Notes under the pieces: generated by a model
What the model saw: the letters and a program-made list of their open reading frames with translations, nothing else
Told to the model about the DNA's origin: nothing
The model's database searches: none
NCBI GenBank assembly: GCA_001872455.1
Contig: MNXJ01000068.1
Location: 1-50,665 of the forward strand
Length of the DNA stretch: 50,665 bases
Reading direction: 5' to 3'
DNA from: Anaerolineae bacterium CG2_30_57_67
Lineage (GTDB): Bacteria > Chloroflexota > Anaerolineae > Anaerolineales > Villigracilaceae
In this document: in pieces, positions 3,782 to 50,665 of the stretch
Position numbering within the stretch: the stretch's first letter is position 1
Layout of the letters: every line of letters begins with the position of its first letter
Made by a program: the position numbers and the translations under genes

Positions 3782-3856
3782 ACCTTGATTTCCTTGATTA
3801 CCATGATTGAGACTCAATCATGATAATCCTCTAATCCTTCTAATCATGGTTAAGAC
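3779..3856. repeat. Interspersed repeat copies at the NACHT/GxxExxY junction
   Basis: This segment contains TACCTTGATTTCCTTGATTACCATGATTG-type and TAATCCTTCTAATCATGGTTAAG-type blocks, matching the cluster at 3031-3416. On the minus strand the CTTAACCATGATTAG block supplies the last codons (Leu-Asn-His-Asp) and the stop of the NACHT gene at 3840. Confidence 0.7.
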
Positions 3857-14281: not shown

Positions 14282-14318
14282 GTTGGTTCCTTGCCCGAAG
14301 TATATCCGAAAATCCGTT

Positions 14319-15065
14319 CTATTCAATCGCCTGTTTCAACTGTTTTGCCAGTGCGCCGAAGGCGGGCGTGTAGCGCATTTCCTCGCTGCGCGGGCGCGGC
14401 AGGGTCACCGGCAAATCCAGTTTGATGCGGCCAGGCCGCGCCGAAAGCAGCAGCACCCGGTCGGCGAGAAAAAGCGCCTCGCTGATGGAGTGCGTGACCA
14501 TCAGCACGGTGGTTTGGCGCGCCTGCCACAGCCGCGAAAGTTCGCCCCACATTTTTTCGCGGGTCAGCGCGTCGAGTGAGCCGAACGGCTCATCGAGCAG
14601 CAGCAGGTCCGGGTCGTGAATCAGCGCGCGGGCCAGCGCCACACGCTGCGCCATCCCGCCCGAAAGGTCGCGTGGCAGGGCGTTTTCAAAACCGGTCAGA
14701 CCGACCAGCGCGGCCATTTCCTGCGCTTTTTGGCAGGCCTGCGCGGCGGGCAAATGCTCCACTTCCAGCGGCAGCAGAATATTTTCGAGGACGCTGCGCC
14801 AGGGCATGAGCGTCGCCTGTTGAAAGACGAAACCCACACGGGGCGCGGCCTGCTGATTCTGAAAGTGAATCGTCCCGGCGGAGGGCTGAATCAGCCCGGC
14901 GAGCGCCCTCAGCAGGGTAGATTTTCCGCTGCCGGAAGGCCCCAGCACGCAGACAAATTCGCGCTCCGCCACCGAAAACGTCACCGGCCCCAGGGCGTGC
15001 AGACCGGCGGCGTTTTGCTCATCGCGAAAGGTGATGCTCAGGTTTTCAATGGAGAAAATGGGCAT
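14319..15065 (-). CDS. ABC transporter ATPase of the riboflavin uptake system
   Basis: The 248-residue ABC ATPase is of the SsuB/TauB/ThiZ class: Walker A GPSGSGKST, signature LSGGMAQRVALARAL, Walker B LLLLDEPFGSLD and switch His MVTHS. It is the third gene of the FMN-riboswitch operon, after the permease and binding-protein genes, and would power riboflavin import. Sequence alone places it only in the nitrate/sulfonate/pyrimidine-type ATPase class. The riboflavin assignment comes from the riboswitch and the RibY-like binding protein. Confidence 0.9.
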   Translation of the reverse strand: MPIFSIENLSITFRDEQNAAGLHALGPVTFSVAEREFVCVLGPSGSGKSTLLRALAGLIQPSAGTIHFQNQQAAPRVGFVFQQATLMPWRSVLENILLPLEVEHLPAAQACQKAQEMAALVGLTGFENALPRDLSGGMAQRVALARALIHDPDLLLLDEPFGSLDALTREKMWGELSRLWQARQTTVLMVTHSISEALFLADRVLLLSARPGRIKLDLPVTLPRPRSEEMRYTPAFGALAKQLKQAIE

Positions 15066-25414: not shown

Positions 25415-26623
25415 TTACATCCTTTCGAGTATCGTGGCCTCGCCCTGACCGACGCCCACGCAGAGCGTCGCCAGGCCGTAGCGCGCAGCGGGGCGGCGGC
25501 GCATTTCATAGAGCAGCGTTGTCAGAATGCGCGCGCCCGAACAGCCGAGCGGATGCCCCAGCGCAATCGCCCCGCCGTTGACGTTGACGCGCTGCGGGTC
25601 GAGTTCGAGATCTTCGATGACGGCCAGCGATTGGATGGCGAAGGCTTCGTTCAGTTCCACCAGATTCAGGTCGTTGACCGTCAGCCCGGCGCGTTGGAGC
25701 GCTTTGCGCGTGGCCGGGACGGGGCCGAGGCCCATCGTGCGCGGCTCAACGCCCGCCGCCGCGGCGGAGACAATCCGCGCCAGCGGCGTCAGCCCCAGGG
25801 CGCGGGCTTTGCTCTCGCTCATCAGCAAAACCGCCGCCGCGCCGTCATTCAGCCCGGAGGAGTTGCCAGCGGTGACCGTGCCGCCCTCTTTTTTGAAGGC
25901 GGGTTTCAGCCGCGCCAGGCTTTCGGGCGTGGTGTCGCGGCGCGGACGCTCGTCCAGCGTCACCAGCAGCGGTTCGCCTTTTTTCTGTGGCACCGGCACG
26001 GGCAAAATTTCGGCGCTAAAGCGTCCGGCATCCTGCGCGGCGATGGCGCGCTGATGCGACTGCGCGGCGAAGGCGTCCTGCTTTTCGCGCGTCAGACGCG
26101 GGCGCAGGGCGGCGATGTTTTCGGCGGTTTCGCCCATCGAGTCGGTGCCGTACAGGTCTTTCATCTGCGGGTTGGGGTAGCGCCAGCCGAGCGCGGTGTC
26201 GTAGGCGGTCAGATTGCCAAACGGGTAGCCGCTTTCGGCTTTGGGCAGTGAGTAGGGCGCGCGCGACATGGATTCGACGCCGCCCGCCAGGTAGATTTCC
26301 CCATCCCCCGCGCGGATGGCGCGCGCCGCCAGATTGACCGCCGCCAGGCTGGAGGCGCACAACCGATTGATGGTGAGTCCTGGCACGCTGTGCGGAATGC
26401 CCGCCAGCAGCAGGCTCATGCGGGCAATGTTGCGGTTATCTTCCCCGGCCTGGTTGGCGCAGCCAAAATAGACTTCTTCAATTTCTGCCGGGTCGAAGGC
26501 GTTGCGCGCCAGCAGGCTTTTGATGACGTGCGCCGCCAAATCATCCGGGCGGATTTTGGCCAGCGCGCCGCCCAAAGCGCCAATCGGCGTGCGTAAAGCA
26601 TCCACAATCACGACTTCAGTCAT
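25415..26623 (-). CDS. Thiolase (acetyl-CoA acetyltransferase / beta-ketoadipyl-CoA thiolase type)
   Basis: The 402-residue thiolase has nucleophile C89 ([11 protein letters not shown]), H357 ([14 protein letters not shown]) and C388 ([10 protein letters not shown]). The [12 protein letters not shown] block is typical of the PcaF/PaaJ-like and FadA-like subgroup. It catalyses reversible thiolytic cleavage or condensation of acyl-CoAs; substrate length cannot be fixed from sequence. The start at 26623 follows AAGGAG. It precedes the BNR gene by 3 bp. Confidence 0.93.
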
Positions 26624-26645
26624 GAGAAATCTCCTTGTTAAACGA

Positions 26646-26674
26646 AAAGATGGGAGAATTTTACCCCCATCTTT
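26646..26674 (-). terminator. Hairpin between fmdB-like gene and thiolase gene
   Basis: The 9-bp stem AAAGATGGG/CCCATCTTT (26646-26654 with 26666-26674) is followed on the minus strand by a short T-rich TCGTTT. It is probably a partial terminator or attenuator ahead of the thiolase operon. Confidence 0.55.
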
Positions 26675-26734
26675 GATTCTGCTAAAAGGAAGGCACTGCG
26701 GGTCTACCGGCATCGCCGGGGCGGAGAAAAATAG

Positions 26735-33405: not shown

Positions 33406-34260
33406 CTAATCTTCGCCCTCAAACTGTTCTTTGTGTTCCAGCATGTGCCGGTAAAGCGCCCGCAAGTTGCGCCGATGTAACGGTTCGGCCAGCCCGCCCA
33501 AATGCACGCGACTCTTGCCCGATTCTTCGATGGTAACTTCGTCCAAGTATTCGAGCGGATTTTTGCGCTTCAGCGCAGTGCGTACGGATTTGCGGATGGC
33601 GGAAAGGTAAGCCAAATTTTCTTTCACCGCCGCGTCAATTTCACCGCGCAGGATAATATCGCCATGCCCCTGAACGACATTTTCCAACCCCATCTTGCTA
33701 ATTTTTTTAATGGATGCAACCAACTCGTTAATGTCGCCATCCACGAGATAAGGGAGAGGCATGAAAGCGTCCCCGGCAAACAAGATGCGGTCCTCCTCCA
33801 CCAGCACAGAAATACCGTCGCGGCTGTGACCCAGCGCAGAAGAAAGAATCAGGTTTTTCTTCCCCACCCGTAAAGTCATCTCGCCGCGGTCAAACGTCAG
33901 GTGTGGCAAAACAATCTTCACCTGTTTCAGGGTGGTGTTCTGTTTTTGGGCTGCTTCCAGCGAAGGCAAGCCCTTTTCCTCCAGCGCCGCACGGCACAGA
34001 GAGTGGGCAATCACGGTTGCACCGGGGAAAAAACAATTGCCCCAGGTATGGTCGGCGTGATAATGCGTGTTGATGACGTAGCGCACCTGCAAAGATAACT
34101 CATGTTCGACAAATTCGCGGATGCTGAGCGTTTCCTCAGGCGTCGCCAGGGTATCAATTACCACCGCCCACTGCGGCCCGGCAATTACCCCAGCGGTGAC
34201 CTGAGCATAGATTTCAGACTGAAACCAGAAAACATTTTCGGAAATTCGTTCACGATGCAT
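33406..34260 (-). CDS. MBL-fold metallo-hydrolase
   Basis: The 284-residue metallo-beta-lactamase-fold protein has THYHADH (H66, H68, D70, H71), GHSRDG supplying the next His, FAGDAF and VQGHGD. It binds two metal ions and resembles the cyclase/quinoprotein-linked MBL hydrolases with an extended helical C-terminus (about 225-284). The substrate is unknown. The start at 34260 follows GAGGG. It is divergent from cydD. Confidence 0.9.
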   Translation of the reverse strand: MHRERISENVFWFQSEIYAQVTAGVIAGPQWAVVIDTLATPEETLSIREFVEHELSLQVRYVINTHYHADHTWGNCFFPGATVIAHSLCRAALEEKGLPSLEAAQKQNTTLKQVKIVLPHLTFDRGEMTLRVGKKNLILSSALGHSRDGISVLVEEDRILFAGDAFMPLPYLVDGDINELVASIKKISKMGLENVVQGHGDIILRGEIDAAVKENLAYLSAIRKSVRTALKRKNPLEYLDEVTIEESGKSRVHLGGLAEPLHRRNLRALYRHMLEHKEQFEGED

Positions 34261-37995: not shown

Positions 37996-39945
37996 ATGAC
38001 AATCAACGCTATCGCCAGTGAAACTTCGCTCAAGGCCCGACCGCAATTACGCCGAACATTAATATTTGTCTGGGCGCTAATCGTCGGTTACACAGTAGCC
38101 ATTTTTATTCTTGCTGCGATGGTTTCTTTTGACCAGCAATCGGCCAATCAGTCAACGCTGATGGGTGTAGTACTCGATACTTTTCTGACCATCTTCAACT
38201 TATCTGTGGATGTGTTAATTGGTTTGGGTTTTACCTTTATTGCCTTCCATCTGTTTGCGCGCCGGTCTGACGACTGGATGGCCTTGTTTACATCCATGTT
38301 TTTGGTAGTATTTTCCACACGCATCAGTAGTTTAATCAATTATGTGGCTACCGTTCCAAGTTACAAAATACCAGCGGGAATTATTCTCGCGCTTGGCGAT
38401 AGCGGCATTGTGCTTTTCGCACTCTTATTTCCCAACGGAAAAGCTCCGCACAAATTTTTTTGGATTCTTCTCCCGCTGGGAGTGACCATGTTTGGGCTGT
38501 ATCTTGTCCCGGCCTCGCCCATTTACTGGCAAATACTTGGCTTAATTTCATACATCAGTGTTCTCCTCATCTGGTATGGAATCGCGCTGGTCATTTTTGG
38601 CTATCGCTATTTTTTCCAGGCAACACCGCTTCAAAAACAACAAATACGCTATGTGTTGGTCGGGCTGATGGGGCCGCTGGCTTGGTTTCTACTTTTCAAT
38701 CTTTCTTACGCTTTCTTCGGCGATGCGCTGACAAATTCTCAGTTAACCGCCGCCGTGTTTCAGGTACTATCACGCATTTTTAGCATTTTCTTATTCATGC
38801 TTTTTCCGTTTTCGCTTACTCTCTCCATTACCCGTTCACGCTTATTTGATATTGACCTGCTGATTAATCGGTCGCTTGTCTACGTTAGTTTGACGGCGGG
38901 ACTTGGCCTGATATTTGCCACCCTGCTGGGGCTGGCCTCGCTTATCTTTCGCACCATTCACCCGGGTGACCAATCCATGCTGGCGCTGACAATTTCCGCC
39001 ATCGCCGCCGGAGCGCTTTTCCAACCGGCGCGGCGCAAATTACAACGCTTTGTAGACCAATTTTTCTATCACATCAAAATTGATTACGAAAAAACGCCTG
39101 TCAAATTACAGCGCAATGAAAATTCGCTAAATGGAGAAACACTCTCATCCTATCGCGAATTAAAACTTATCGGGCGCGGCGGCATGGCAGATGTTTATCG
39201 TGCTGAAAACCCCACCAACGGCAAACCTGTTGCCATCAAAGTTTTGTCTCCTTCACTGGCCATAGATGAACAATTTCGACGCCGCTTTTTGCGTGAAGCC
39301 GAGGCCATTACCAGCCTGGAACATCCCAATATTGTACACGTGCTTCATTACGGCGAAGAAAATAATACCTACTACATCGTCATGGAATACCTGACCGGCC
39401 CCGATATTCGCAATTTACTCAAAGAGGTGCACCACATCGAACTCGCCGACGCCTTGCCCATGCTTCGGGAAGTGGCCTCCGCGCTAGATTATGCTCACTC
39501 GCATGGATTGGTTCACCGCGATATCAAACCCTCTAATGTCATGCTCGATTCGTCCCGCCTGCCAACACGCGCCGTGTTGACAGATTTTGGCATTGCAAAA
39601 ATTGCCGACGCGCATACCAAAATCACAGTCACGGGCGTGCTTGGCACTTTCGATTACATTGCCCCAGAGCAGATTCAGTCTTCGGGCGAAGTAACCGCCT
39701 CCGCCGATTTATACGCTCTGGGCGTGATGACCTATCAGATGCTGACTGGTCACCTGCCTTTTGAGCGCGCCAACACCGGGGCGCTTTTGTTGGCGCACCT
39801 CACTACGCCGCCGCCCGATGCCCGCGAAATCGCCCCAAACCTGCCGCACCAGACAGCTTATGCCATTCAACGCTCCATGGCAAAAAAGCCCGAAGACCGC
39901 TACGCCACTGCGAACGACTTTATCTCCGCCCTGGAAAATACATGA
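37996..39945 (+). CDS. Membrane protein fused to a C-terminal Ser/Thr protein kinase
   Basis: The 649-residue protein has about eight to ten N-terminal membrane helices (22-345), including SRLFDIDLLINRSLVY (281-296). A complete Hanks-type kinase (386-648) follows: Gly loop GRGGMADV, K415, HRDIKPSN (H507, D509), DFG 530-532, activation segment with T550 and APE 556-558. The usual bacterial order is kinase first, membrane helix second; here it is reversed. The membrane module is of the kind seen ahead of sensor histidine kinases in Chloroflexota. No Shine-Dalgarno is seen; the upstream 113 bp are pyrimidine-rich and otherwise featureless. Confidence 0.9.
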   Translation: MTINAIASETSLKARPQLRRTLIFVWALIVGYTVAIFILAAMVSFDQQSANQSTLMGVVLDTFLTIFNLSVDVLIGLGFTFIAFHLFARRSDDWMALFTSMFLVVFSTRISSLINYVATVPSYKIPAGIILALGDSGIVLFALLFPNGKAPHKFFWILLPLGVTMFGLYLVPASPIYWQILGLISYISVLLIWYGIALVIFGYRYFFQATPLQKQQIRYVLVGLMGPLAWFLLFNLSYAFFGDALTNSQLTAAVFQVLSRIFSIFLFMLFPFSLTLSITRSRLFDIDLLINRSLVYVSLTAGLGLIFATLLGLASLIFRTIHPGDQSMLALTISAIAAGALFQPARRKLQRFVDQFFYHIKIDYEKTPVKLQRNENSLNGETLSSYRELKLIGRGGMADVYRAENPTNGKPVAIKVLSPSLAIDEQFRRRFLREAEAITSLEHPNIVHVLHYGEENNTYYIVMEYLTGPDIRNLLKEVHHIELADALPMLREVASALDYAHSHGLVHRDIKPSNVMLDSSRLPTRAVLTDFGIAKIADAHTKITVTGVLGTFDYIAPEQIQSSGEVTASADLYALGVMTYQMLTGHLPFERANTGALLLAHLTTPPPDAREIAPNLPHQTAYAIQRSMAKKPEDRYATANDFISALENT

Positions 39946-39984
39946 CGCCCCCATAAATTACTACCCAAATCGAAAAGAGTAGGA

Positions 39985-40025
39985 TATAATGTCGTGCCGT
40001 TTGAAGCGCTTTCGAGCGCGTTTTT
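39985..40025 (+). promoter_or_regulatory. rpmH promoter and leader attenuator
   Basis: TATAAT at 39985-39990 (no good -35) is followed by a small hairpin GCGCT-TTCG-AGCGC (40006-40019) and GTTTTTG, an intrinsic-terminator-like element 32 nt before the rpmH start. It could attenuate the ribosome/protein-insertion operon. Confidence 0.6.
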
Positions 40026-40056
40026 GTTCTTATCCCTAAATTTGTGAGGAAAGTTC

Positions 40057-40230
40057 ATGGCTACAAAACGTACTTACCAACCCAAAATTCGCCGCCGTAT
40101 GCGCGTTCACGGCTTTCGCCAGCGCATGTCTACCGCTGATGGGCGTGACGTTCTCAAGCGCCGCCGCCAGCGAGGTCGTTACAAGTTGACGGTGGAAATC
40201 AATAATCACGTCAAGAAAGTTCGCTGGTAG
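40057..40230 (+). CDS. rpmH: 50S ribosomal protein L34
   Basis: The 57-residue, very basic protein starts [20 protein letters not shown] and contains [19 protein letters not shown], the conserved L34 core. The C-terminus is extended by about 12 residues ([13 protein letters not shown]) compared with the usual 44-46-residue L34. The ATG follows TGAGGAAAG. It heads the classic rpmH-rnpA-yidD-yidC-jag cluster. Confidence 0.97.
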
Positions 40231-40269
40231 GCGCAGGCAGCGCGTGCCGTTGCACAAAGTGAGGGATGG

Positions 40270-40644
40270 GTGCAGCGTCGTTTTCGCCTGACCCGGTCCA
40301 CCGATTTCAAGCGGGTGCGGAATGATGGAAAATCTTACGCGCACCCGCTTGTTGTGTTGGTATCTCTCCTCGAAACGGGAGAGCGCCCGCAGGTAGGGGT
40401 CACGGCGGGGCGCACACTTGGAGGCGCTGTTCAGCGTAACCTGGCCAAACGCCGTCTGCGCGAATGTATTCGTCCTCTTCTCCCCCAGATTCAGCCCGGT
40501 TGCGAATTAATTTTCATCGCCCGCCAACCCTTACTCAAAGCCGACTTTCAGACGCTTCAACAGGCTGTGCAAACCGTTTTGCGCCGGGCGCATTTGCTTT
40601 CGACCAATGACTCACAGACACCACCACAACTACCTGCCGGATGA
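40270..40644 (+). CDS. rnpA: Ribonuclease P protein component
   Basis: The 124-residue protein carries the RnpA pattern [18 protein letters not shown], then [20 protein letters not shown] with the RNR-like box [13 protein letters not shown], and [10 protein letters not shown]. It binds RNase P RNA and helps 5' processing of tRNAs. The start is a GTG at 40270 with GAGGGA directly upstream; the ATG at 40266 is out of frame. It overlaps yidD by 38 bp. Confidence 0.96.
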
Positions 40645-40909
40645 TTATCCCAATGAGCCGCAGTTGCGCAAGTTGCCACGCAACTGGCGTAACTGGCCGC
40701 GGATTGTCTTGCTGGCGTTGGTGAGAGCCTACCAGGTAACCCTTTCCAAAGCCCTGCCCGCCAATACCTGCCGGTTTTACCCGTCTTGCTCTCATTATGG
40801 TTACCAGGCGATCTATAAATACGGAGCCATCAAGGGCGGGTGGCTGGCAACCTGGCGCGTGATTCGATGTAACCCGTTTAACCCGGGCGGGGTTGACCCC
40901 GTTCCTTAG
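40607..40909 (+). CDS. yidD: Membrane protein insertion efficiency factor YidD
   Basis: The 100-residue protein has a His-rich start (THRHHHNY), then the YidD core with [14 protein letters not shown] and [11 protein letters not shown]. It supports YidC-dependent membrane insertion at the inner face of the membrane. It starts inside rnpA, an overlap seen in many genomes, and has no clear ribosome site of its own. Confidence 0.95.
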
Positions 40910-40917
40910 GAGATTTA

Positions 40918-42036
40918 ATGAACTTCAAACGCCCCCTTCTTCTGGCGCTATTCATTTTGCTGGCGGTTCTTCTCACCGCTTGCGGGAGCGCCCCGGCTAC
41001 CAATTGGCCTGGGCTGGCTACGGATGGCGTCACCCTTTACCTGGCGGAAGGCCAACGCATCAACGCCATCCAACTCAGCGATGGCAAAGATGTGATGATA
41101 GCCTCCGGCGATAAGCAAGTTCCTTTCCGCTTCCCGCTGGATACCCAGACCACTGCTTTTTATGCACCTCCCGCCATTTTACCCAACGGCCAAATGGTGA
41201 TTGGCAACGCCTCGCAGAGCGAATTTAGCCTGTTCTGGTACGACCTGGCAACTGGCGCGCAAGTTCACGCCTTTGACGGCGCCAAAAAGCCCTGGTTTGC
41301 AGGCGCGGTCGTCGTCGGCGAAGATTTCTTCGTCCCTGCAGGCGACGGTAATTTGTACGGCTTCACCATGGACGGGCAGAAACGCTGGCAGTTTGCGGCT
41401 TCCTCGCATGCCTTATGGACGACGCCCACCAGTGACGGCATTACTCTTTTTCTGGGGACGCTCGATCACCAACTCTATGCCATTAACGCCGAAACCGGCC
41501 AACAGACCTGGAAAATTTCACTCGATAACGGCGTGATTGGATCGCCCACGCTGGTGAATGGCACCCTTTACGTTGGCACGCTCTCTGGCGAGTTGTATGC
41601 CATCAACGCCGCCGACGGCGTCATCCTCTGGCAAAAAGCGCTTACCGGCGGCATCTGGAGCGCCCCGGCACTCAACGTTGACGCCACAAGCCTATACATC
41701 GGAACGGTCAACGGTACCGCAGGCATGTTCTACATCGTCAATGCCGCCACTGGCGAAATCATCCGCTCCATCGAAGAAACCAAAGGTTCCATCACTGCCA
41801 CTCCGCTGGTACTGCCAGACCAAGTCGTTTACGTTACCGATACCGGCAGCATTTACTGGGTCACGCCTGCAGGAGACCCCATCCGCCAGCCTGTTGTGCT
41901 AGAAAATGCTAAACTCTACACTGCGCCTATGCTGGTTGGCGACCTGATTATCATCGCGCCGATGAATTACGCCAACCTGTTGCTGGCCTTTGACATGAAC
42001 GGCGCCCAAAAATGGGCTTACACCCCGGAAAAGTAG
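40918..42036 (+). CDS. PQQ/BamB-like beta-propeller lipoprotein
   Basis: The 372-residue protein has a lipoprotein signal with lipobox LLTAC and repeated PQQ-like strands (LYAINAETGQQTW, LYAINAADGVILW, YIVNAATGEII), predicting a seven- or eight-bladed propeller like BamB. The start follows TAGGAG. It lies 8 bp after yidD and 9 bp before yidC. BamB serves outer-membrane assembly in diderms; here it may assist YidC or Sec substrates on the outer face. This position is not part of the standard cluster. Confidence 0.9.
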   Translation: MNFKRPLLLALFILLAVLLTACGSAPATNWPGLATDGVTLYLAEGQRINAIQLSDGKDVMIASGDKQVPFRFPLDTQTTAFYAPPAILPNGQMVIGNASQSEFSLFWYDLATGAQVHAFDGAKKPWFAGAVVVGEDFFVPAGDGNLYGFTMDGQKRWQFAASSHALWTTPTSDGITLFLGTLDHQLYAINAETGQQTWKISLDNGVIGSPTLVNGTLYVGTLSGELYAINAADGVILWQKALTGGIWSAPALNVDATSLYIGTVNGTAGMFYIVNAATGEIIRSIEETKGSITATPLVLPDQVVYVTDTGSIYWVTPAGDPIRQPVVLENAKLYTAPMLVGDLIIIAPMNYANLLLAFDMNGAQKWAYTPEK

Positions 42037-42045
42037 GACGAGACC

Positions 42046-42870
42046 ATGTGGGATTTAATAATTGTCAACCCATTTACCAACGTGCTATTGCTCATCTACG
42101 CTTTTGTGGGCAACTTCGGCGTGGCGATCATCCTGTTCACCATTCTCATCCGCCTGCTAACACACCCCATCATGGCGACGCAAATCAAATCCAGCGCTAC
42201 CATGCAGGAATTGATGAAATCGGACGAATGGCTCAAAATTCAGGCCAAGCACAAAGATGACCGCGAAAAATTGGCGCAGGAGCAGATGAGGCTCTATAAA
42301 GAGAAGGGCGTCAACCCCTTTGGCTCGTGTCTGCCAACCCTGATTCAGTTTCCCATTCTGATTGGTTTTTACCAGAGCATCGTACGCGCCATTGCCGCCA
42401 CACCACTGCAGCTGCTCAGCCTGGTGCGCGGAATTTGGCCGCAGTTAGCCAGCATCAGCTCCACCGCCAGCCTCTCGGCGCTGATTCCGATTCAGAGCAA
42501 ATTTCTGTGGATGGATTTGGGCCTGCCAGAGCGTGTCATCCTGCCTTTTCTGCCTGCAGGGTGGGGGCTTCCTGTCCTGGCGCTTATCGTGGCAATCACC
42601 ACCTACATCCAGACCAAGTTAACCACTCCGCCTGCCGCTGACCCCAACGACCAATCGGCGCAGATGACTCAATCCATGGCTATCACCATGCCGCTGATGT
42701 TGTTCTATTTTTCGCTGAATTTTGCGTCTGGCCTGGCGGTATATTTCATCACCAGCAATATCATCGGCATTCTGCAATACGCCGCCCTGGGCAAAGTCAA
42801 CTGGAAAAACCTGTTTAGTTCTTCCAAACCCGAAGTCAAAGCTAAATCTAAAACTGGCAAACGCTCATAA
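42046..42870 (+). CDS. yidC: Membrane protein insertase YidC/Oxa1
   Basis: The 274-residue insertase has five membrane segments in the usual arrangement and the cytoplasmic hairpin LYKEKGVNPFGSCLPTLIQ. The second half ends with MPLMLFYFSLNFASGLAVYF and a basic tail (KAKSKTGKR). It inserts membrane proteins alone or with SecYEG. It is of the short Gram-positive type but lacks a lipobox. A hydrophilic-groove Arg is expected in the second segment (ILIRLLTHP). Confidence 0.95.
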   Translation: MWDLIIVNPFTNVLLLIYAFVGNFGVAIILFTILIRLLTHPIMATQIKSSATMQELMKSDEWLKIQAKHKDDREKLAQEQMRLYKEKGVNPFGSCLPTLIQFPILIGFYQSIVRAIAATPLQLLSLVRGIWPQLASISSTASLSALIPIQSKFLWMDLGLPERVILPFLPAGWGLPVLALIVAITTYIQTKLTTPPAADPNDQSAQMTQSMAITMPLMLFYFSLNFASGLAVYFITSNIIGILQYAALGKVNWKNLFSSSKPEVKAKSKTGKRS

Positions 42871-42879
42871 AGAGGACGT

Positions 42880-43596
42880 ATGGAACGCACAAACCTGGAA
42901 GTAATTGCCCCCACCATCGAAGAAGCCACCGCCCGTGGTCTGGAACAATTGGGCGTCTCATCAGAAATGGTGGAAGTGGAAGTATTGGATGAAGGTACAC
43001 GCGGTTTTCTTGGAATGGGCAGCCGCCAGGCCAGAATCCGAATGACGCTCAAATCGGCTGATGCGCTTGCAGCGCCCGCTTCGGCCCATCCATCGGACGC
43101 TGCCTCGCCCACGCCTGCCGCCGCCGATGACGACTTGCTGAACTTTACGGCAGAAACTGCCCGAGAACTGCTTGCACGCATGAAACTCACCGCCACAGTC
43201 ACCGTTTCCTATGGCGCAGCCGATCTGTCGGGCGAGAAAAACATTCTGGTAGATATTCGTGGCGACGACCTTTCGGTGTTGATTGGCCGCCGCGCCGAGA
43301 CGATGAACGCCCTGCAATACATTCTTGGGCTGATTGTCAGCAAGCAGACCGAAGCATGGGTGCAGGTCACGGTGGATGTAGAAGGCTACCGCGCACGCCG
43401 TGAACAACAATTACGTCAACTGGCGCGCCGCATGGCGGAACAGGCCATCTGCACCGGCAAACGTCAGGTGTTGGAGCCGATGTCCTCCGCTGAACGCCGC
43501 ATTATTCACCTGGAATTACGCGAGGTCCCCGAAGTCATCAGCGAAAGTGTTGGTGAAGACCCCAACCGCAAAGTAACCATCTCGCCCAAAATATAA
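42880..43596 (+). CDS. jag: RNA-binding protein KhpB/Jag
   Basis: The 238-residue protein has an N-terminal Jag_N domain (1-55, TIEEATARGLEQLG, EGTRGFLGMGSRQARI), an Ala/Pro-rich linker (60-85), a KH domain (about 90-165, LIGRRAETMNALQYIL) and an R3H domain (170-230, MSSAERRIIHLEL). It binds RNA and in Firmicutes influences cell elongation. The start follows GAGGAC. It closes the cluster before a strong terminator. Confidence 0.95.
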   Translation: MERTNLEVIAPTIEEATARGLEQLGVSSEMVEVEVLDEGTRGFLGMGSRQARIRMTLKSADALAAPASAHPSDAASPTPAAADDDLLNFTAETARELLARMKLTATVTVSYGAADLSGEKNILVDIRGDDLSVLIGRRAETMNALQYILGLIVSKQTEAWVQVTVDVEGYRARREQQLRQLARRMAEQAICTGKRQVLEPMSSAERRIIHLELREVPEVISESVGEDPNRKVTISPKI

Positions 43597-43616
43597 CGCG
43601 CCTCACGAAGCACATC

Positions 43617-43654
43617 ACGGCGTTCAACGTTTGAAGACGTTGAACGCCGTTTTT
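43617..43654 (+). terminator. Rho-independent terminator after jag
   Basis: The perfect 14-bp stem ACGGCGTTCAACGT/ACGTTGAACGCCGT (43617-43630 with 43637-43650), a 6-nt loop and TTTT end the rpmH-jag operon. Confidence 0.95.
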
Positions 43655-43655
43655 G

Positions 43656-43967
43656 TTATATTCTTTCCAACAGCCAAAAAACCAACATTCCGCCCACAAT
43701 TGTCCAAACCACGTTTTTGGTGACGTAGGCCACGCCTGTGGCAAAAAGTCCTGCCATCAGGCGCGGGTTGGACGGAGAGAACAGGAACACGTCGTTGTGG
43801 TACGCCAGTTGCGGAGCGATGATGGCGCTCAAAACTGCAATGGGCGCCAGACGCAGGGCGCGCTGCAGGGGCGCGGGCAGTTTGATTTTTTCGAGCAAAA
43901 TGATGAAAGACAGGCGCGTCAAAAAAGTCAACAAACCACTCAACACCATGATGAGCCAAAGAGTCAT
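43656..43967 (-). CDS. azlD: AzlD-type branched-chain amino acid exporter small subunit
   Basis: The 103-residue protein has three or four membrane helices (LIMVLSGLLTFLTRLSFIIL, APIAVLSAIIAPQL, LMAGLFATGVAYVTKNV), the AzlD/BrnE pattern. It partners AzlC to export branched-chain amino acids. The ATG overlaps the azlC stop (ATGA) with AAGG upstream. Confidence 0.92.
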   Translation of the reverse strand: MTLWLIMVLSGLLTFLTRLSFIILLEKIKLPAPLQRALRLAPIAVLSAIIAPQLAYHNDVFLFSPSNPRLMAGLFATGVAYVTKNVVWTIVGGMLVFWLLERI

Positions 43968-44656
43968 GTTGTTGCCTTCTTCTCTGCCAACAAGCCCGCG
44001 CCAATGGCAATCAGCGTGGCGCTGATTAATCCCAGTTTGAAGGGCAGCCCTATCAGCGCCAGCGCCGCCAGGCTGGCAATTAGGGCAGTCGCCACCCCGG
44101 CGCGGTCTTTGAGCGCTGGCACAACCAGCGCAAGAAACGTCAGCGGCAAGGTGAAATCCAGCCCCCATACGGCCGGGATTTGCGCCCCCAGAAAAATCCC
44201 GGCGGCGGTGCTGATTTGCCACGCAGACCAGAGCGCCAGCCCAGCCCCAAAAAAATACCAGTGCGCGTATGCCGTAACGCCGCGGCGCTGATAGTTGAGA
44301 ACGCCCACCGCGAAGGCTTCATCCGTCAGCAGATAGGCTAGTGCACCCTTCCAGCACAGCGGCAGCGTTTGCAGGTAGGGCGCAACCGTTGCGCTGTATA
44401 GCGCATGGCGCAGGTTGATGACAAAAGTGGTCAACACGATGACAAACACTGGCGTTCCGGCTTTGACCAGTTCCACCAGCATAAACTGCGACGCCCCCGC
44501 AAAAACAATCGCCGACATGGCCTGGGCTTCAAGCGCGGGCAAACCAGCGCTGAGCGCCAGAATGCCATAAATCATCCCAAACGGAATCACGCCCAGCAGG
44601 ATGGGCAACTCGTCGCGTACCCCACCCCAAAATTGCGAACCGGCGCTCTCGTTCAT
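43964..44656 (-). CDS. azlC: AzlC-type branched-chain amino acid exporter large subunit
   Basis: The 230-residue protein shows the AzlC/BrnF pattern: LGVIPFGMIYGILALSAGL, AIVFAGASQFMLVELV, FVINLRHALYSATVAPYL and LLTDEAFAV. With AzlD it forms the export channel. Its start overlaps the upstream aldose-epimerase-like gene as ATGA, so all three form one operon. Confidence 0.94.
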   Translation of the reverse strand: MNESAGSQFWGGVRDELPILLGVIPFGMIYGILALSAGLPALEAQAMSAIVFAGASQFMLVELVKAGTPVFVIVLTTFVINLRHALYSATVAPYLQTLPLCWKGALAYLLTDEAFAVGVLNYQRRGVTAYAHWYFFGAGLALWSAWQISTAAGIFLGAQIPAVWGLDFTLPLTFLALVVPALKDRAGVATALIASLAALALIGLPFKLGLISATLIAIGAGLLAEKKATT

Positions 44657-45519
44657 GGCAGGTTTGCCATCAGCCGGGAAATTTCATCGGGCAACAGCGC
44701 AGGCTCCAGCCCAGAGTAGATTTCCCAGGTTTCGAGATGCTCGATGCTGGCGCCCGGCTCCAAACGTGTGAGTGCGCCCAGGCTTTCCAATTCCAAAAAC
44801 TGATGATTGCAATAAGATTCGGTGTTGCAACCGCCATCGGGAAAATTTGCGCCTGGCAGTGGGTTGAAACGCTTGACAAAAAGTGTGTTTTCGATGAAGT
44901 AGGCCTGCCAGCCACTCGGGTTGAAGTAACCCAGTTTGATGGCGCTCTTCCCTTCCGGGTCGGCGCGGAGCAAAATGAAATCATCACGCAGAATCAGACG
45001 CGGGTCGTTGAGGTGGGTATACGGCCAGAGCGTCAACTGGCGATTTGGAAGCAGCCCAGCCGCATCCACGTTGCCTTGCGCCTGCGGGAAAACTGCCACC
45101 CCGCCCAGCCGGAACATGGTCAGCGCCCAGGGAGCAAGTTCCACCGCCCAGGGGCCTTCGTTACGCAACTCGTGACGCAGAAACACTTGCGCGGCGTTGG
45201 GGTTCAAGCGCACTTCCAGGCTTTTAGCGATATGCGTCCAGGGTTCTGCAGGCGCGTCCAGGCGCGCGCCGCCGGGAATTTTGCTCAAGGTGGCGCCAGC
45301 GTCAGGCAGATAGGTGCGCGGCATGGCTTCGGGCGCATGCCACAGACGATGCCCGCCGCGAAAGAAAAACTCGCCAAAAGCAGTTGAAACGGCCTGCTCA
45401 CCCAACTCAGCGAAGAGATTCTGCCCGCCGAAGGCGCACAGACGCACAATACGTGGAGAATCGGCCAGCAGGTCAAGCCGTAAAAATCGGTTTTCGAGGG
45501 TGTAGAGATTGTTTAACAT
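44653..45519 (-). CDS. Aldose-1-epimerase-like (galactose mutarotase fold, DUF4380-type) protein
   Basis: The 288-residue protein is all-beta, with patterns of the galactose-mutarotase superfamily: LAELGEQ, FRGGHRLWHAPEAMPRTYLPD, HELRNEGPWAVELAPWALTM and NTESYCNHQFLELESLG. DUF4380 proteins share this layout. It probably binds a carbohydrate; catalytic residues are not certain. The start at 45519 has AGGAG upstream. It heads the azlCD operon, whose functional link to it is unclear. Confidence 0.78.
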   Translation of the reverse strand: MLNNLYTLENRFLRLDLLADSPRIVRLCAFGGQNLFAELGEQAVSTAFGEFFFRGGHRLWHAPEAMPRTYLPDAGATLSKIPGGARLDAPAEPWTHIAKSLEVRLNPNAAQVFLRHELRNEGPWAVELAPWALTMFRLGGVAVFPQAQGNVDAAGLLPNRQLTLWPYTHLNDPRLILRDDFILLRADPEGKSAIKLGYFNPSGWQAYFIENTLFVKRFNPLPGANFPDGGCNTESYCNHQFLELESLGALTRLEPGASIEHLETWEIYSGLEPALLPDEISRLMANLP

Positions 45520-45593
45520 CCATGCTCCTGAAAAGAAATTGGGCTGTATTGTACCAAAATGCCTTTCTGTTTTGAAATTGAAACTTTTTTGGC

Positions 45594-45622
45594 TTGCCGC
45601 ACCCCGCCCAGCGTGATAAACT
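45594..45622 (+). promoter_or_regulatory. Putative leaderless promoter of the TnpA-like fusion gene
   Basis: TTGCCG (45594-45599), a 17-bp spacer and TAAACT (45617-45622), with the ATG 8 nt after the -10 and no Shine-Dalgarno. Confidence 0.6.
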
Positions 45623-45630
45623 TTCCCAAG

Positions 45631-47223
45631 ATGGCAAATCCCCTTTTGGTACTATCGCCCCAAAAAACATTCGGTGAGTTGATTGCAAAATCATTCACCG
45701 AGTTTGACACGCACGTCACGGCAGATTTTTCAGACGCGATACGCTTCGTGCGCCAAAACCCAACCTGCCCGGTATTGCTCGATTCGGAATTAAATGATTT
45801 TGAGCTTTCGGCGCAAGAAATAGGGCAAGGATTGCGCCAGGTAAGCGCAGAAGTTTCGCTGGTGCTGATTACCCGTCCTGGCGAAAGTGTTCCGATAAAA
45901 GATTTGCCCCTGCGCGGCACACTCATCAAGCCGATTGCGTTGCCTAAACTACGGGCGTTGTTACTTCCCCCAAAAAACGCCTCGGCGCCCGAATTGGATA
46001 CGCTGAAATGGCTGCATGATGAAAATCGCGCCGCGCGTCATCTGACGCGCTTGATGATGGAATCATCCGCACAGGCAGCGTTGATTACCCGTAAAAACGA
46101 ACTGTGGGCGTATGCCGGGCAACTTTCCAGTGAGGCCGCTCAAGAATTGGCGCGTTCAGCGCAACAGTACTGGGACAGCGAAGCCCACAACGACCTGCTT
46201 AAATTTATTCGCCTGACTGCGACAGATTCACAGCACATGCTTTACGCCCGCCGCCTAACAGCCTCGATGGCGTTGGCGTTAGTTTTTGACGCCGAAACGC
46301 CGTTGAGCGCCATCCGCACCCAGGCGGGCAAGTTGGTGCGCGAGCTGGCGGAAGTTTCGCAAACGGTCACCAGCCAGGTGAGTTTAAATCAGGCTGTGGC
46401 GGCAGAGGAAGAAGAAGATTTTCCGCCCATTGCGAATCTACTGGGCGAGGTGCCACCGCCGCTCCCGCCGAAACAGACTGCGGGGGCACGGAGCGTCGCC
46501 TTCCCCTGGGAGCGGGAAACGCCATCACCGTTCTTCCGTCCAACAGCGGCAGAACCAACAACACAGCCGCCTCCCCTCCCCAAACAAGTAGTTGTTGTGC
46601 AAGAATTCAGTCGTGAAAGTTCCCCGCCCATCCGGCGCGATGAAAAAGCTGTGCTACCTTCGCTCGAAGAAACACGCGCGCAAAAATCTCGCCGCGAGGA
46701 AGACCTGGCAGAAACGCGCGCGCAAAAGTCCCAGCCTGACCCACAATCCATCATCGAGACCCATCCACAGTCAGTGACGGAAGTGGCGCGGCGGATTATG
46801 CTGGAACCGGGCTCGGCTTCCATGTACAACCTGAATTATGCTTGTTTGTTGGTACCCCGCTTTGATAATCATCACTTAACCGGTGATTTATCCGACCGGT
46901 TGAATGCCTGGGTGCCGCAAATTTGTGTGGCCTTTGGCTGGCGGCTTGAACACCTGGCAGTGCGCCCCGATTACCTGCAATGGGTGGTAAGCGTGCCGCC
47001 TGCGACTGCGCCCAATCAAATTGCGCGGATGATGAGTCGGCACACGTCTGACCGTATTTTGAACGAATTTCCTCGCTTCAAGACAGAAAACGCCTCCAGT
47101 GAGTTTTGGGCGCAGGGTTATCTGATTATGGGCGGCCTGCAACCACATTCGGCGCAGATGGTGCGCGATTTCATTCGCCAAACGCGCCATCGTCAGGGCC
47201 TGTTGCGCGATAGCGACGGGTAG
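45631..47223 (+). CDS. Receiver-like / roadblock-like / inactivated IS200 TnpA-like fusion protein
   Basis: The 530-residue protein has three parts. Residues 1-115 form a degenerate response-regulator receiver, with D51 (PVLLDSEL) and K100 (GTLIKPIA) in place but no acidic pair after strand 1. Residues 135-245 resemble a roadblock/LC7 domain (LMMESSAQAALITRKNELWAYAG, LALVFDAETPL). Residues 260-385 are a Pro/Glu/Arg-rich linker. Residues 398-522 match the IS200/IS605 TnpA fold (NLNYACLLVPRF, PDYLQWVVSVPP, ILNEFPRF, EFWAQGYLI, VRDFIRQT). The HUH metal site reads Tyr-Leu-Gln (448-450) and the nucleophilic Tyr is Phe514, so nuclease activity should be lost. The ATG at 45631 fits a leaderless transcript; a start at 45559 is possible. 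It is likely a regulator; the ligand is unknown. Confidence 0.8.
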   Translation: MANPLLVLSPQKTFGELIAKSFTEFDTHVTADFSDAIRFVRQNPTCPVLLDSELNDFELSAQEIGQGLRQVSAEVSLVLITRPGESVPIKDLPLRGTLIKPIALPKLRALLLPPKNASAPELDTLKWLHDENRAARHLTRLMMESSAQAALITRKNELWAYAGQLSSEAAQELARSAQQYWDSEAHNDLLKFIRLTATDSQHMLYARRLTASMALALVFDAETPLSAIRTQAGKLVRELAEVSQTVTSQVSLNQAVAAEEEEDFPPIANLLGEVPPPLPPKQTAGARSVAFPWERETPSPFFRPTAAEPTTQPPPLPKQVVVVQEFSRESSPPIRRDEKAVLPSLEETRAQKSRREEDLAETRAQKSQPDPQSIIETHPQSVTEVARRIMLEPGSASMYNLNYACLLVPRFDNHHLTGDLSDRLNAWVPQICVAFGWRLEHLAVRPDYLQWVVSVPPATAPNQIARMMSRHTSDRILNEFPRFKTENASSEFWAQGYLIMGGLQPHSAQMVRDFIRQTRHRQGLLRDSDG

Positions 47224-47291
47224 GTTTTAGCGAAAATAACAACATTTAACCACCGGCAGGCGTCGCCGCCGCGCCATCCAAATGGGTCGGT

Positions 47292-49685
47292 CTACTTATC
47301 GTTGACAGGCACAGGCAGTTCCAGCCATATCACCAGCGGCAGGTAGAGATAAGAACGTGCCATGTTATACGCTTCCCCACCCGCAAAATTTCCATTGCCC
47401 ATGCCTATGCCACCAAGCGGATGATCCACCAGGTCTGCGATGGTATCGTCATCCACTACATCCAGGCGAATGGTACCAGGGCCGCTACCGGTGTTGACCA
47501 CGATGGTGTAGTCCGTTGGACCACCAGTAACGCCCGTAACAGATGCGCCGCTGATGTCGCCCGTTGTGGTCAGGCTGAAGTCGGTCGAATCCACACCTGC
47601 GACAGGCTCAGAGAACGTGACCGTGAAGGTCACGCTGGGAGCGCTGGTTGGATTGGAATTTACGCGTGTAATAGACGTAACGCTGGGATGGATTAAGTCT
47701 TGCGTCTTGATCATTGCCCAGTAGCCAGAATCCAACTTGTAATTGGAACTTTCCATGTGGCCAATAATGGTTGGCTGCCCAGCCGTCCCATTCAATATAT
47801 ATTGAGAAGAATTCACTTGCATTCCGGCTGCGCCGAATGTACTGCTTTGCAAGAGGTAATGTGACGAAGATGGGCGAGCAGGATACAGATTTATCACGAT
47901 AGTATCCGAATATACAACCGATACATTGCCCGCGTAATCCTTGAATTGCGCTTCGACGCTGGCAGTCTGCCCATGGGAGCCGATGAGTTGCCAGAGCGTA
48001 AAGTTAGGCGCATACCAGATTGACCAGGTCACTTGCCCGGCATCACGGAAACGCGCTACAACTATTCCGCTGGTGGAATCATTTCCTTGAGTATTCAGTT
48101 CAACGGTTGTGGAATAAGTCTCTGCTGAACCGTTCTGAATAACCAACGATCCGGTGGGAGCGACAGAATCAATATTGATTGGGGTAGATTTTTCTATTTC
48201 CATGTTCCCGGCAACATCCACAGATTTGTAATACACCGTATGGCTGCCATCCGTGGACACGGGAAATGGTACGCTGTAGGTTTGCCAAGTGCCCGAGTCG
48301 ATTTTGTATTGCGTTTGGCTCACGCCGGAACCGCCGCTGTTGTCAACGGCTGAGAGAGTCACCTGAACATCTGACTTATACCAACCATTTTCGCCAACAG
48401 TGCCTGATAGCGCACTTGAAGTCGTCGGAGGTGTTGTATCGGGTCTGAAGAACAAATAATCAGATGCTGCGCAAGTAAAGTTTTGCGTGCATGGTTCTGT
48501 ATAATTACCGTCCCAACCATACGGGTCAGTGTTGCGGTAGGTGCCGCCTACATTCCGCCGCACTGAGAAGTGTAAATGAGGGCCGGTACTACAGCCGGTA
48601 CTGCCACTTTGCGCTATTTGTTGATCTTGTGATACTGATTGCCCGACGCTGACGTCAATGCGATTCAAATGCCAATAAGAAGTCTTGTGCCCGTTGCTAT
48701 GCTGGATTGTTACAACAAGTGCAGTTTCGTTTTTCCCGGTTACCCAACAATAATTGGTGGATCCGCCAGCAAACGTAACCGTTCCAGCTGCGCTGGCATA
48801 AACATTTTCATAATTCAAACCATAATCAATTGCATCGTGTCCATCATAAGAGTAACTACCACGCTGCCCCGTAAATATCACTGTCGAGCCATTTGTGGAA
48901 TAATCTGGATATTCGTGATCAAAGTAGGAGTTTATTGAATGTGGACCGTGAAATGGCTCAATCAGAAAAGGATTATAACCAGAGACACCCGACGCAGCGT
49001 TCAAGGTAGTGGGAGCAGTGTAGGTAGGAGCAATAGCCCAATATTGCTGATACATTTCTGTAAAGCCAGATGTCGCCTTCGCTGTAGTTAATGCCTGCCA
49101 TTCGCCATAGGTCGCATCCAAACTGAGCAAGCGATAGACGGCATAGGACGCGCGGTTGACGTCATCAGGCAGGGCAATACTTATACCGTCAGTAAATTGC
49201 AAAGGCTTCAAGTATTCTTCATTAAATCCTCGCACCAATTCACGCGCCGCCCAATCCACTTGAAGCGATACCCCCGCTAAACCAGGATCAATGCGCCCCA
49301 TCGGATACTGTAATTGCATCTCCGATGGCTCCAGCATAGATAGTATTCCAGACTTAAATTCCAACAATGTAAGCAATACTCTGGGGCTAATGTTATGGTA
49401 TTCCACATTGGCCATGATAACCGTTGCGGTTGATTGGGTTTCATCACCAATTTTAACCTTGTGTAATTTCAATACCCCCGGTTGCTGTTCTAGAAATGTT
49501 TGAATGGCAGGAATGTCCATATCAGCATCCGCAAAGAAACGATCGTCAGAAATCAACAATACGGTTTGCGACTGCGCTTTTACGTTGCCAATATTTAAGA
49601 AACTCATGCTTGTAAACAGTTCAAATAGCATAGCAACAACAAGCATACTGCTCAAAACCTCAATTGGTTTTTTAGTATTCACCAT
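47292..49685 (-). CDS. Surface protein with M23/LytM peptidase domain
   Basis: The 797-residue protein has a signal peptide (about 8-38, ending VKAQS) and an N-terminal helical region to about 230. A LytM domain (280-395) has H283, D287 (DGHDAIDYG), H339 (SYWHL) and H370/H372 (GPHLHF). Two Ig/OmpL47-like domains (410-515 and 520-600) follow, then a segment with YILNGTAGQPT and YKLDSGYWAM, a SVTFTVTFSEPV Ig-like domain, and the tail YLYLPLVIWLELP, similar to YLPLV endings of Chloroflexota exported proteins. It probably cuts cross-linked peptides outside the cell; the zinc ligands look intact. The start follows AAAGGATAAG. Confidence 0.87.
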   Translation of the reverse strand: MVNTKKPIEVLSSMLVVAMLFELFTSMSFLNIGNVKAQSQTVLLISDDRFFADADMDIPAIQTFLEQQPGVLKLHKVKIGDETQSTATVIMANVEYHNISPRVLLTLLEFKSGILSMLEPSEMQLQYPMGRIDPGLAGVSLQVDWAARELVRGFNEEYLKPLQFTDGISIALPDDVNRASYAVYRLLSLDATYGEWQALTTAKATSGFTEMYQQYWAIAPTYTAPTTLNAASGVSGYNPFLIEPFHGPHSINSYFDHEYPDYSTNGSTVIFTGQRGSYSYDGHDAIDYGLNYENVYASAAGTVTFAGGSTNYCWVTGKNETALVVTIQHSNGHKTSYWHLNRIDVSVGQSVSQDQQIAQSGSTGCSTGPHLHFSVRRNVGGTYRNTDPYGWDGNYTEPCTQNFTCAASDYLFFRPDTTPPTTSSALSGTVGENGWYKSDVQVTLSAVDNSGGSGVSQTQYKIDSGTWQTYSVPFPVSTDGSHTVYYKSVDVAGNMEIEKSTPINIDSVAPTGSLVIQNGSAETYSTTVELNTQGNDSTSGIVVARFRDAGQVTWSIWYAPNFTLWQLIGSHGQTASVEAQFKDYAGNVSVVYSDTIVINLYPARPSSSHYLLQSSTFGAAGMQVNSSQYILNGTAGQPTIIGHMESSNYKLDSGYWAMIKTQDLIHPSVTSITRVNSNPTSAPSVTFTVTFSEPVAGVDSTDFSLTTTGDISGASVTGVTGGPTDYTIVVNTGSGPGTIRLDVVDDDTIADLVDHPLGGIGMGNGNFAGGEAYNMARSYLYLPLVIWLELPVPVNDK

Positions 49686-49705
49686 CTTATCCTTTAAAAT
49701 TTGCG

Positions 49706-49735
49706 CCTATAAGTGACTCCACTGCAATAACTCAA
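49706..49735 (-). promoter_or_regulatory. Candidate promoter of the M23 gene
   Basis: Minus-strand TTGAGT (49730-49735), an 18-bp spacer and TATAGG (49706-49711), 20 bp upstream of the start codon. The rest of the 213-bp spacer holds a small AATGCCC/GGGCATT hairpin (49770-49788) and no gene. Confidence 0.5.
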
Positions 49736-49898
49736 TTTTCAAAAAATGCAACAAATTCTTTTCCACTTCAATGCCCTATTTGGGCATTTTCGTGAGAGCA
49801 TCGCAGTTATCCGATGTTCTTTCGCCAACTTTCTCCCACTTTTGCCTAACGAAAATGGCGAACCGACCTTTTTGCAGTAGAGTCATAAGTAATGCGGA

Positions 49899-50665
49899 TT
49901 AAATAACTAACGGTTGGCTGGGGTAGCCGTGTAATTCCAAGCCGGTAGGAAGTCGTCGAATAACCAATTCGACGCTGGTGAACAAAACGCCCTGACAAAC
50001 TCTGGTAACATGCGAAAACAGACGATGCTCGATCGGATTGTGCTTGGAGCAGTAGGGCGGGTAGTGCGCAATGCGAATTTCAATGCCCAACTCATCTGCC
50101 AATTTTTGCAGGTCTTCTTTGAAGATATAGTGACGTGAAGCATTGCTGCCACCGCCATCACATAACATCAATATCGAAGTGGCCTCGGGATACTGTTTCC
50201 GACCGTGTTCAAACCACCAAGAACGTAGACAATCACAGGCAAATTGACTGGTATCCTTGCTCGTACCAATATGAATGTAACCGATGTTTTGTTGAACATC
50301 ATAAATACCATGTGGAATGATGACGCCTGCGGCATCTGTACTGAAGTCGTGGTCATTCGCGTGCAATTCTTCTCGTGTATACAGGCGTCTTGCGCGCTAA
50401 GAATTGCCCAGATTCTCTTTCTTCTTGGTATCGAAACTGATGATGGGGTTGCCTGCTGCGGAAAACCCGGCTTTTAGCTGGCGAATGTTCTTGAATTGCT
50501 CATCTCGATTAGCCAACCGTTTTCATGGTTTTCTTCTTTTGAGCTTTCCTGAGATGATAACCATGTTTCTTGAGCAACTTCTTGATGACGGTTTTGCTAA
50601 CCTTTACTTGATATTTTTCTTGCAAAAGTTTCGCCATTTCATCAGGTGTCAAATCTGTCCAGACT
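49899..50665 (-). pseudogene. ISAzo13-type transposase, disrupted (runs off right edge)
   Basis: The protein homology reads VWTDLTPDEMAKLLQEKY and VSKTVIKKLLKKHGYHLRKA, then NRDEQFKNIRQL and ISFDTKKKENLGN, then HANDHDFSTDAAGV, IPHGIYDVQQNIGYIHIG, LMLCDGGGSNASR, HYPPYCSKHNPIEHRLFSH. This is the DDE core of the ISAzo13/Rhodopirellula-type family. A frameshift near 50515-50520 and an in-frame TAG at 50397-50399 break it, and the end after VLFTSVELV does not match the usual C-terminus. The N-terminus lies outside the window. It is inactive as read. Confidence 0.85.

Follow-up and report, generated by a model that had tools for sequence, protein, structure and literature searches.

A gene in the window, the stretch of 50,665 nucleotides analyzed here, encodes a signalling-type protein whose C-terminal domain almost certainly derives from an IS200/IS605-type TnpA transposase that was domesticated and lost its cutting site, as judged from sequence comparisons across relatives. 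The gene and its parts are:

45631..47223 (+): whole gene, encoding pseudoreceiver, roadblock, linker and dead TnpA domain; 530 amino acids plus stop
45637..45966 (+): receiver-like domain, residues 3–112; Asp51 and Lys100 retained, acidic pair not (Ser9-Pro10 in the window)
45988..46350 (+): MglB-like roadblock domain, residues 120–240; PDB profile matches, weak NCBIfam MglB match
46351..46788 (+): linker rich in Pro, Glu and Ser, residues 241–386; least conserved part of the protein
46606..46626 (+): short conserved linker motif FSRESSP, residues 326–332, seen in the alignment
46822..47181 (+): IS200-type TnpA (Y1_Tnp) domain, residues 398–517; Pfam, NCBIfam, Foldseek and VIA-align
46972..46983 (+): former HUH motif, now Tyr-Leu-Gln-Trp (448–451); Y448 in 52/52, Q450 in 50/52 and W451 in 51/52 core rows
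47170..47172 (+): position of the former nucleophilic Tyr, Phe514 in the window; 27 Tyr vs. 25 Phe among the 52 core rows
47179..47199 (+): tail that follows helix D at the C-terminus, Q-T-R-H-R-Q-G (517–523); conserved in the dead clade, not in TnpA

Architecture of the Protein

An in-frame ATG is also present at 45559; four of five aligned relatives start at the equivalent of 45631, and the fifth lacks the receiver part. At E ≤ 0.5, Pfam Response_reg matches the receiver region of 42/59 rows, 4e-10 being the best value; the window's own protein gives no such match. A profile of the receiver family finds solved response regulators in the PDB (E 2e-12). Asp51 is kept in 58 and Lys100 in 54 of the 59 rows. 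The acidic pair for Mg2+ is gone: it is Ser9-Pro10 in the window, and position 9 is Thr or Ser in 57/59 rows and Asp in 2/59. The receiver-like domain is probably not phosphorylated in the usual way.

No Pfam domain, Robl_LC7 included, matched the roadblock region in the window's protein or in the 59-row set. With a profile of 14 rows, all PDB hits below E 0.7 were MglB, eight sequences at E 4e-4 to 0.014. For the N-terminal part, the structure model (mean pLDDT 60.6, with low values past residue 110) is good for the receiver only, and the roadblock assignment therefore rests on the profile search. Roadblock proteins of the MglB type pair with small GTPases; the host genome encodes a small GTPase on contig C28:7940-8425 (ATP_bind_1, 75 bits; Ras, 41 bits). 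The linker ranges from 68 to 171 residues across the 59 rows and is enriched in Pro, Glu and Ser; five of the seven residues of FSRESSP are invariant in a six-row alignment, and the motif also appears in the 59-row consensus. The profiles and the linker composition show that an earlier note, made from the letters and open reading frames alone, was right to join the TnpA domain through a linker to receiver-like and roadblock-like parts. Fusions of Response_reg with an MglB-like (Robl_LC7) region were noted in 2014 and likewise have an N-terminal receiver followed by the MglB-like region; in contrast to the present protein, no TnpA domain is reported for them, and the main text of that paper does not use the word transposase (PMC4316618).

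The C-Terminal Domain Has the TnpA Fold

Residues 398–517 match Pfam Y1_Tnp at 52.6 bits, where the cut-off is 23 (E 6e-14), and the NCBIfam IS200/IS605 transposase model with 59.4 bits against a cut-off of 55. Sequence search matched six distinct solved TnpA-type sequences, with a best E of 1.5e-7. An AlphaFold2 model of the domain, built from a six-row alignment, reached a mean pLDDT of 69 and a pTM of 0.63, the other four models being poorer. With this model, Foldseek returned 29 matches at E ≤ 0.001, all of them TnpA-type transposases. The top 15 rows of VIA-align were also all TnpA-type, with Z of 9.2–11.0 over 106–119 residues, and the next row, an unrelated protein, had Z 7.8; helix D lies outside the aligned range in most of these rows. 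The earlier claim that the C-terminal domain keeps the TnpA fold signature is thus borne out by Pfam, NCBIfam, Foldseek and VIA-align, the latter two providing the structural match that the note had proposed to seek. In fold, domain length and the matches in Pfam, NCBIfam and Foldseek, the domain resembles the TnpA of IS200/IS605 elements such as IS608 and ISDra2 (Y1, PF01797). Viral contigs scanned with the six-row domain alignment yielded no relative. A plasmid search yielded 33 records, none with at least 80% query cover, and the annotated rows among those listed were nearly all IS200/IS605 tnpA.

The Catalytic Center Is Lost Throughout a Clade

We compared 81 dead domains, gathered by similarity to the window's protein, with 25 ordinary TnpAs. 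The dead set comprises 52 core rows (the window's protein and relatives of the same kind), 18 standalone domains and 11 second copies or outside relatives, after removal of loci present more than once (19 locus ids). The ordinary set consists of 5 plasmid genes, 3 distant class matches with intact HUH (L093–L095) and 17 of the strongest Y1_Tnp matches. Weaker Y1_Tnp matches in relatives (many, mostly under 45 bits) lie outside it, and L008, a poor match, and L119 were removed from it before both trees described below were built.

Both HUH histidines occur together in none of the 81 dead-clade domains, compared to 25/25 ordinary TnpAs, and a still-active transposase is rejected on this count. 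The window's protein has Tyr448-Leu449-Gln450 at this motif, just as the earlier note had read it; the loss is general among homologues, none of the 81 having an intact HUH. Given also the structural match, neither of the two results that the note had named as refuting was seen among the domains compared. Single His remnants persist in the dead clade, the first His in three rows and the second in four. The third metal-ligand position is Thr518 in the window's protein and Thr in 45/52 core rows, compared to Gln in 17/25 TnpAs; the metal ligands of IS608 are H64, H66, D61 and Q131 (PMC5934647). Going by these residues, the metal-binding site is lost across the dead clade compared. The nucleophilic Tyr is present in 23/25 ordinary TnpAs, the other two lacking a residue there. 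In the core, by alignment, Tyr-to-Phe is only one of two states, so it was rejected as a diagnostic feature: the reading of the nucleophile as Phe holds for the window (Phe514), but not as a fixed change.

Other positions differ as well. Arg412 is present in 25/25 TnpAs and lost in the dead clade, whereas Arg is invariant in the core at 410, 438 and 519 (52/52 each) and nearly so at 482 (51/52). Position 469 is Lys in 25/25 TnpAs, Arg in 50/52 core rows and Ser in the window's protein. With Arg412 gone and other arginines now invariant, any binding of nucleic acid, should it occur, must follow another mode than in TnpA. In the tail, R519 is found in 81/81 dead-clade rows and Q522 in 52/52 core, 18/18 standalone and 4/11 other dead rows. 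The net charge of the domain is +3.1 in the core vs. +3.7 in the 25 TnpAs, with the standalone and other dead copies less positive (+1.2 each); against a smaller TnpA set of 8 rows, the core had +2.1 vs. +5.0. The idea that the domain lost positive charge is weakened accordingly, since the difference is large against 8 TnpAs and small for the core against 25.

Unlike TnpA of IS200/IS605 elements, then, the dead clade lacks the His pair, has mostly Thr as third ligand and has lost Arg412; the dead domain is moreover fused to signalling domains and near-universal in its host family. Quentin et al. (2018) classed TnpA-Y1 proteins with long fusions discarded and HuH and Y required, and took those with missing core motifs as probably non-functional (PMC6006769). 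Among open-licence papers, we found no description either of this protein or of regulators that contain a dead TnpA domain.

Distribution and Selection Support Domestication

A homologue at E ≤ 1e-10, in some cases a partial match, was found in 96/100 genomes of the host family, in 63/65 of the good ones and in 26/26 genera; this profile supplies the phylogenetic check that the earlier note had proposed. Class-wide, 54/396 genomes had a match, and outside the host family many matches cover the N-terminal part only. Long frames containing both the N-terminal part and TnpA occur outside the host family in two genomes of family f2 and in one genome each of f4 and f37. The named relatives are Anaerolineae/Chloroflexi MAGs. 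No other Y1_Tnp match over the cut-off was found in the host genome; relatives often carry ordinary TnpAs elsewhere, and the 17 strong readable ones all have HxH.

Information per column across 49 core rows was highest in the TnpA domain (3.51 bits), followed by the roadblock (3.33), receiver (2.34) and linker (1.91). The dN/dS of the TnpA domain was 0.005–0.162 in 13 close pairs, which were hand-chosen, share some members and in some cases have high dS; it was the lowest of the measurable regions in 10/13. With no other part of the protein as well conserved, and with a dN/dS far below 1, the dead domain was domesticated rather than left to decay. A functionless passenger in decay would account for the lost catalytic residues, yet it has next to no chance of being correct when the domain shows the highest conservation in the protein, a dN/dS far below 1 and presence in 96 of 100 family genomes; the pseudogene explanation was rejected on the same three grounds. 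The earlier proposal that the transposase had been exapted is thereby supported by its near-universality in the family and by strong purifying selection.

In a tree of 74 rows, which includes 20 of the 52 core rows and whose bootstrap had not settled, a branch with 100/100 support set the 49 dead rows apart from the others. A control tree of 106 rows, with the HUH and Tyr columns removed and all 81 dead rows included, kept the dead split (SH-aLRT 99), this being a quick search with some long branches. L091 and L092, which have the same fusion outside the host family, branch near the base of the clade, and L092 keeps the first His. Standalone copies and second fused copies fall inside the dead clade, so domain copying seems to be later than HUH loss. 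The single clade of dead copies is consistent with one domestication.

TnpA-REP proteins (RAYTs) offer a parallel in that a Y1 domain is kept as a host gene, and their catalytic centre is preserved (PMC8266576). RAYTs have an intact HUH and Tyr and cut single-stranded REP sequences, whereas here both His are lost. The present Y1 domain also differs from theirs in standing C-terminal to a pseudoreceiver and a roadblock. A dead TnpA kept by strong selection throughout a family, unlike the RAYTs with their intact centre, provides a test system for the value of the TnpA fold without cutting; the case may also connect a GTPase-type module with DNA polymerase I.

The Gene Lies Next to polA in Most Relatives

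In 43 of 50 host-family loci, polA lies directly downstream of the gene on the same strand, after a gap of 20–505 nt; the 50 loci stem from the best matches and represent about half of the host-family genomes that had one. This adjacency in the host family is a new observation. In a second family the gap is 18 and 42 nt (L089, L090). The seven loci without direct polA are four of the window's genus (L039–L042), L016, L019 and L049; in the L049 genome, one gene is inserted between the dead-TnpA gene and polA. A TPR protein follows polA in 11/19 loci compared. In the window's own genome, polA is on another contig with other neighbours, and none of the neighbours of the gene within 39001–50665 recurs in the 18 other loci compared. 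Genes for a metallo-beta-lactamase-like protein (33406–34260, -), RadA (12857–14326, -) and a thiolase (25415–26713, -) in the window resemble, by eye, neighbours of the fused gene in relatives; they lie 11–33 kb from the fused gene, as though an ancestral cluster had been scattered.

A receiver-roadblock gene without TnpA lies directly before polA in two genomes of other families, where it overlaps or touches the polA start (L154:1931-5448, L155:1706-5414), and one gene away from polA in a third genome (L157). In the other five of the eight loci with the N-terminal part only, the receiver-roadblock gene was not seen by polA or not recovered as an ORF. Such TnpA-less genes before polA suggest that TnpA may have joined a gene that already stood beside polA, and the arrangement in L154 and L155 is perhaps the state before this addition. 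No receiver-roadblock gene was seen before polA in 12 genomes of the class or order that lack the protein, one of which had only 171 nt upstream.

The gap between the fused gene and polA contains a hairpin, CGCAGAG-TATAAT-nn-CTCTGCG, in genera g2 and g4 (e.g., L021, L024, L026). Among 16 genomes searched, the pattern occurred exactly once in each of 12, always in this gap; it was missing from the window's genome and 3 of the 15 others, and a reversed control pattern gave 0 sites. In an alignment of 13 hairpins, which are distinct forms of one type with gaps containing another or no hairpin excluded, 99.1% of cells pair and both-side changes occur in 2/9 pairs; slid controls pair much less. A T-rich run follows the stem, so a terminator is the plain reading of the hairpin. 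Its loop, TATAAT, resembles a -10 box; in many cases a -10-like box belonging to polA itself stands directly ahead of the polA start (by eye), so co-transcription with the fused gene is no more than a possibility, a point against our best explanation below. The hairpin is at most a candidate ligand of the dead TnpA domain.

Dead Copies Recur in Signalling Neighbourhoods

Standalone dead-TnpA open frames are 173–231 amino acids long, and 144 and 166 in L071. An Mrr-like gene is found near 14/24 secondary loci, mostly as the next gene (L065, L066, L068, L071, L075, L077, L080–L085, L087, L088); the one Mrr-like protein scanned matches Mrr_cat and Mrr_N. Mrr is a nucleic-acid family. The Gln-x-Lys motif, which we take to be the catalytic motif of the Mrr-like protein, is kept in 4/14 of these proteins (by eye). 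Among seven genomes checked, this Mrr-like protein was present in 2/2 with a secondary dead copy and 0/5 without.

A TPR gene occurs in 10/24 secondary loci and a histidine-kinase-family gene in seven, as assigned from one scanned member each. Six other loci are near MCP genes, four of them with CheW, assigned by gene family with one member each scanned. In two loci near MCP genes (L073:1923-4827, L074:1069-4220), a standalone dead TnpA directly precedes a NACHT/FGE-sulfatase-family gene, assigned by scan in L073 and by family in L074. The dead domain thus recurs in signalling neighbourhoods. In chemotaxis and two-component neighbourhoods, protein-protein roles are usual.

Possible Function of the Dead Domain

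We tentatively favour a model in which an IS200/IS605-type TnpA was taken over by a regulator as a non-cleaving module that would still bind nucleic acid and read a hairpin. The TnpA dimer fold would keep its grip on structured single strands (hairpins of DNA or RNA) but no longer cut them, and the receiver-like domain and MglB-type roadblock at the N-terminus would set the oligomeric state or location in the cell. The best candidate process would be the expression or function of DNA polymerase I, because the gene is upstream of polA in most relatives examined and the gap hairpin covaries in two genera; with the gene away from polA in the window's genus, it must act in trans there. Hairpin binding by the dead domain, which the earlier note proposed along with an output role, is plausible: the fold, the invariant Arg (410, 438, 519), a core charge near that of TnpA and the polA linkage would speak for nucleic-acid binding, and the loss of Arg412, Ser469 in the window's protein, the lower charge of the standalone copies and the signalling contexts would speak against it. 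Also counted for the model are the single dead clade, strong selection, near-universality in the host family and a small GTPase in the genome; also counted against it are a hairpin that looks like an ordinary terminator, the loss of the polA link in the window's genus and three other loci, and the 12 genomes lacking the protein in which no receiver-roadblock gene precedes polA.

A protein-interaction role is almost as likely as hairpin binding. The dead TnpA would then be a dimerisation module whose compact fold and helix D pair signalling proteins with no nucleic acid bound, a serious contender given that C405, W427, C432, W437 and W451 are nearly invariant in the core and look structural, that the Arg of the TnpA turn is lost, that the tail motif R519/Q522/G523 is new, and that standalone copies sit near MCP, CheW, histidine-kinase or NACHT genes. 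Such a role fits poorly with the conserved polA link, the Mrr-like proteins beside secondary copies and the several invariant Arg. It is improbable that the domain acts on the substrate of Pol I rather than on the polA gene, by binding lagging-strand single-stranded DNA or hairpins and bringing a GTPase or polarity system to sites of replication or repair. IS608 and ISDra2 do target the lagging-strand template (PMC6006769), and polA is adjacent; however, adjacency alone cannot tell this from transcriptional control, and the window's genus does not keep the polA link. If the domain were an enzyme whose active site had been rebuilt as Tyr-x-Gln-Trp, the near-invariance of Y448, Q450 and W451 in the core would be explained, but this is very improbable: both HUH His have gone together in all rows compared, the third ligand (Gln in 17/25 TnpAs) is Thr in 45/52 core rows, and the nucleophile position takes Tyr or Phe about equally.

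The non-cleaving hairpin reader can be extended to a fuller history, which we consider possible and on the whole unlikely: a selfish single-strand transposase would have been domesticated once in Anaerolineae, become a dead hairpin reader and then, in a single family, a near-universal regulator with ties to DNA polymerase I, with the dead domain subsequently copied into chemotaxis, two-component and Mrr-like operons. TldR proteins are nuclease-dead relatives of TnpB that serve as RNA-guided repressors. The likeness is that an enzyme of the same kind of element lost catalysis and was used for regulation; the difference is that TldR belongs to the TnpB side and is RNA-guided, whereas the present protein belongs to the TnpA side, with no guide known. 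If true, this history would make it the TnpA counterpart of the TnpB-derived TldR regulators.

Other Features of the Window

The leucine-rich-repeat protein encoded at 3–3014 (-) includes a Ras-like GTPase stretch (Arf match); it is truncated by the contig end and apparently Roco-type (by eye). In the protein encoded at 3840–5885 (-), a NACHT NTPase precedes a hydrophobic repeat region rich in Gly, and a fragment of an ISAzo13 family transposase lies near the contig end (49899–50366, -). At 40270–43596, rnpA-, yidD-, PQQ-repeat lipoprotein-, yidC- and jag-like genes stand in a row, as identified by eye and, for jag, by domain match; such a row is found near many replication origins.
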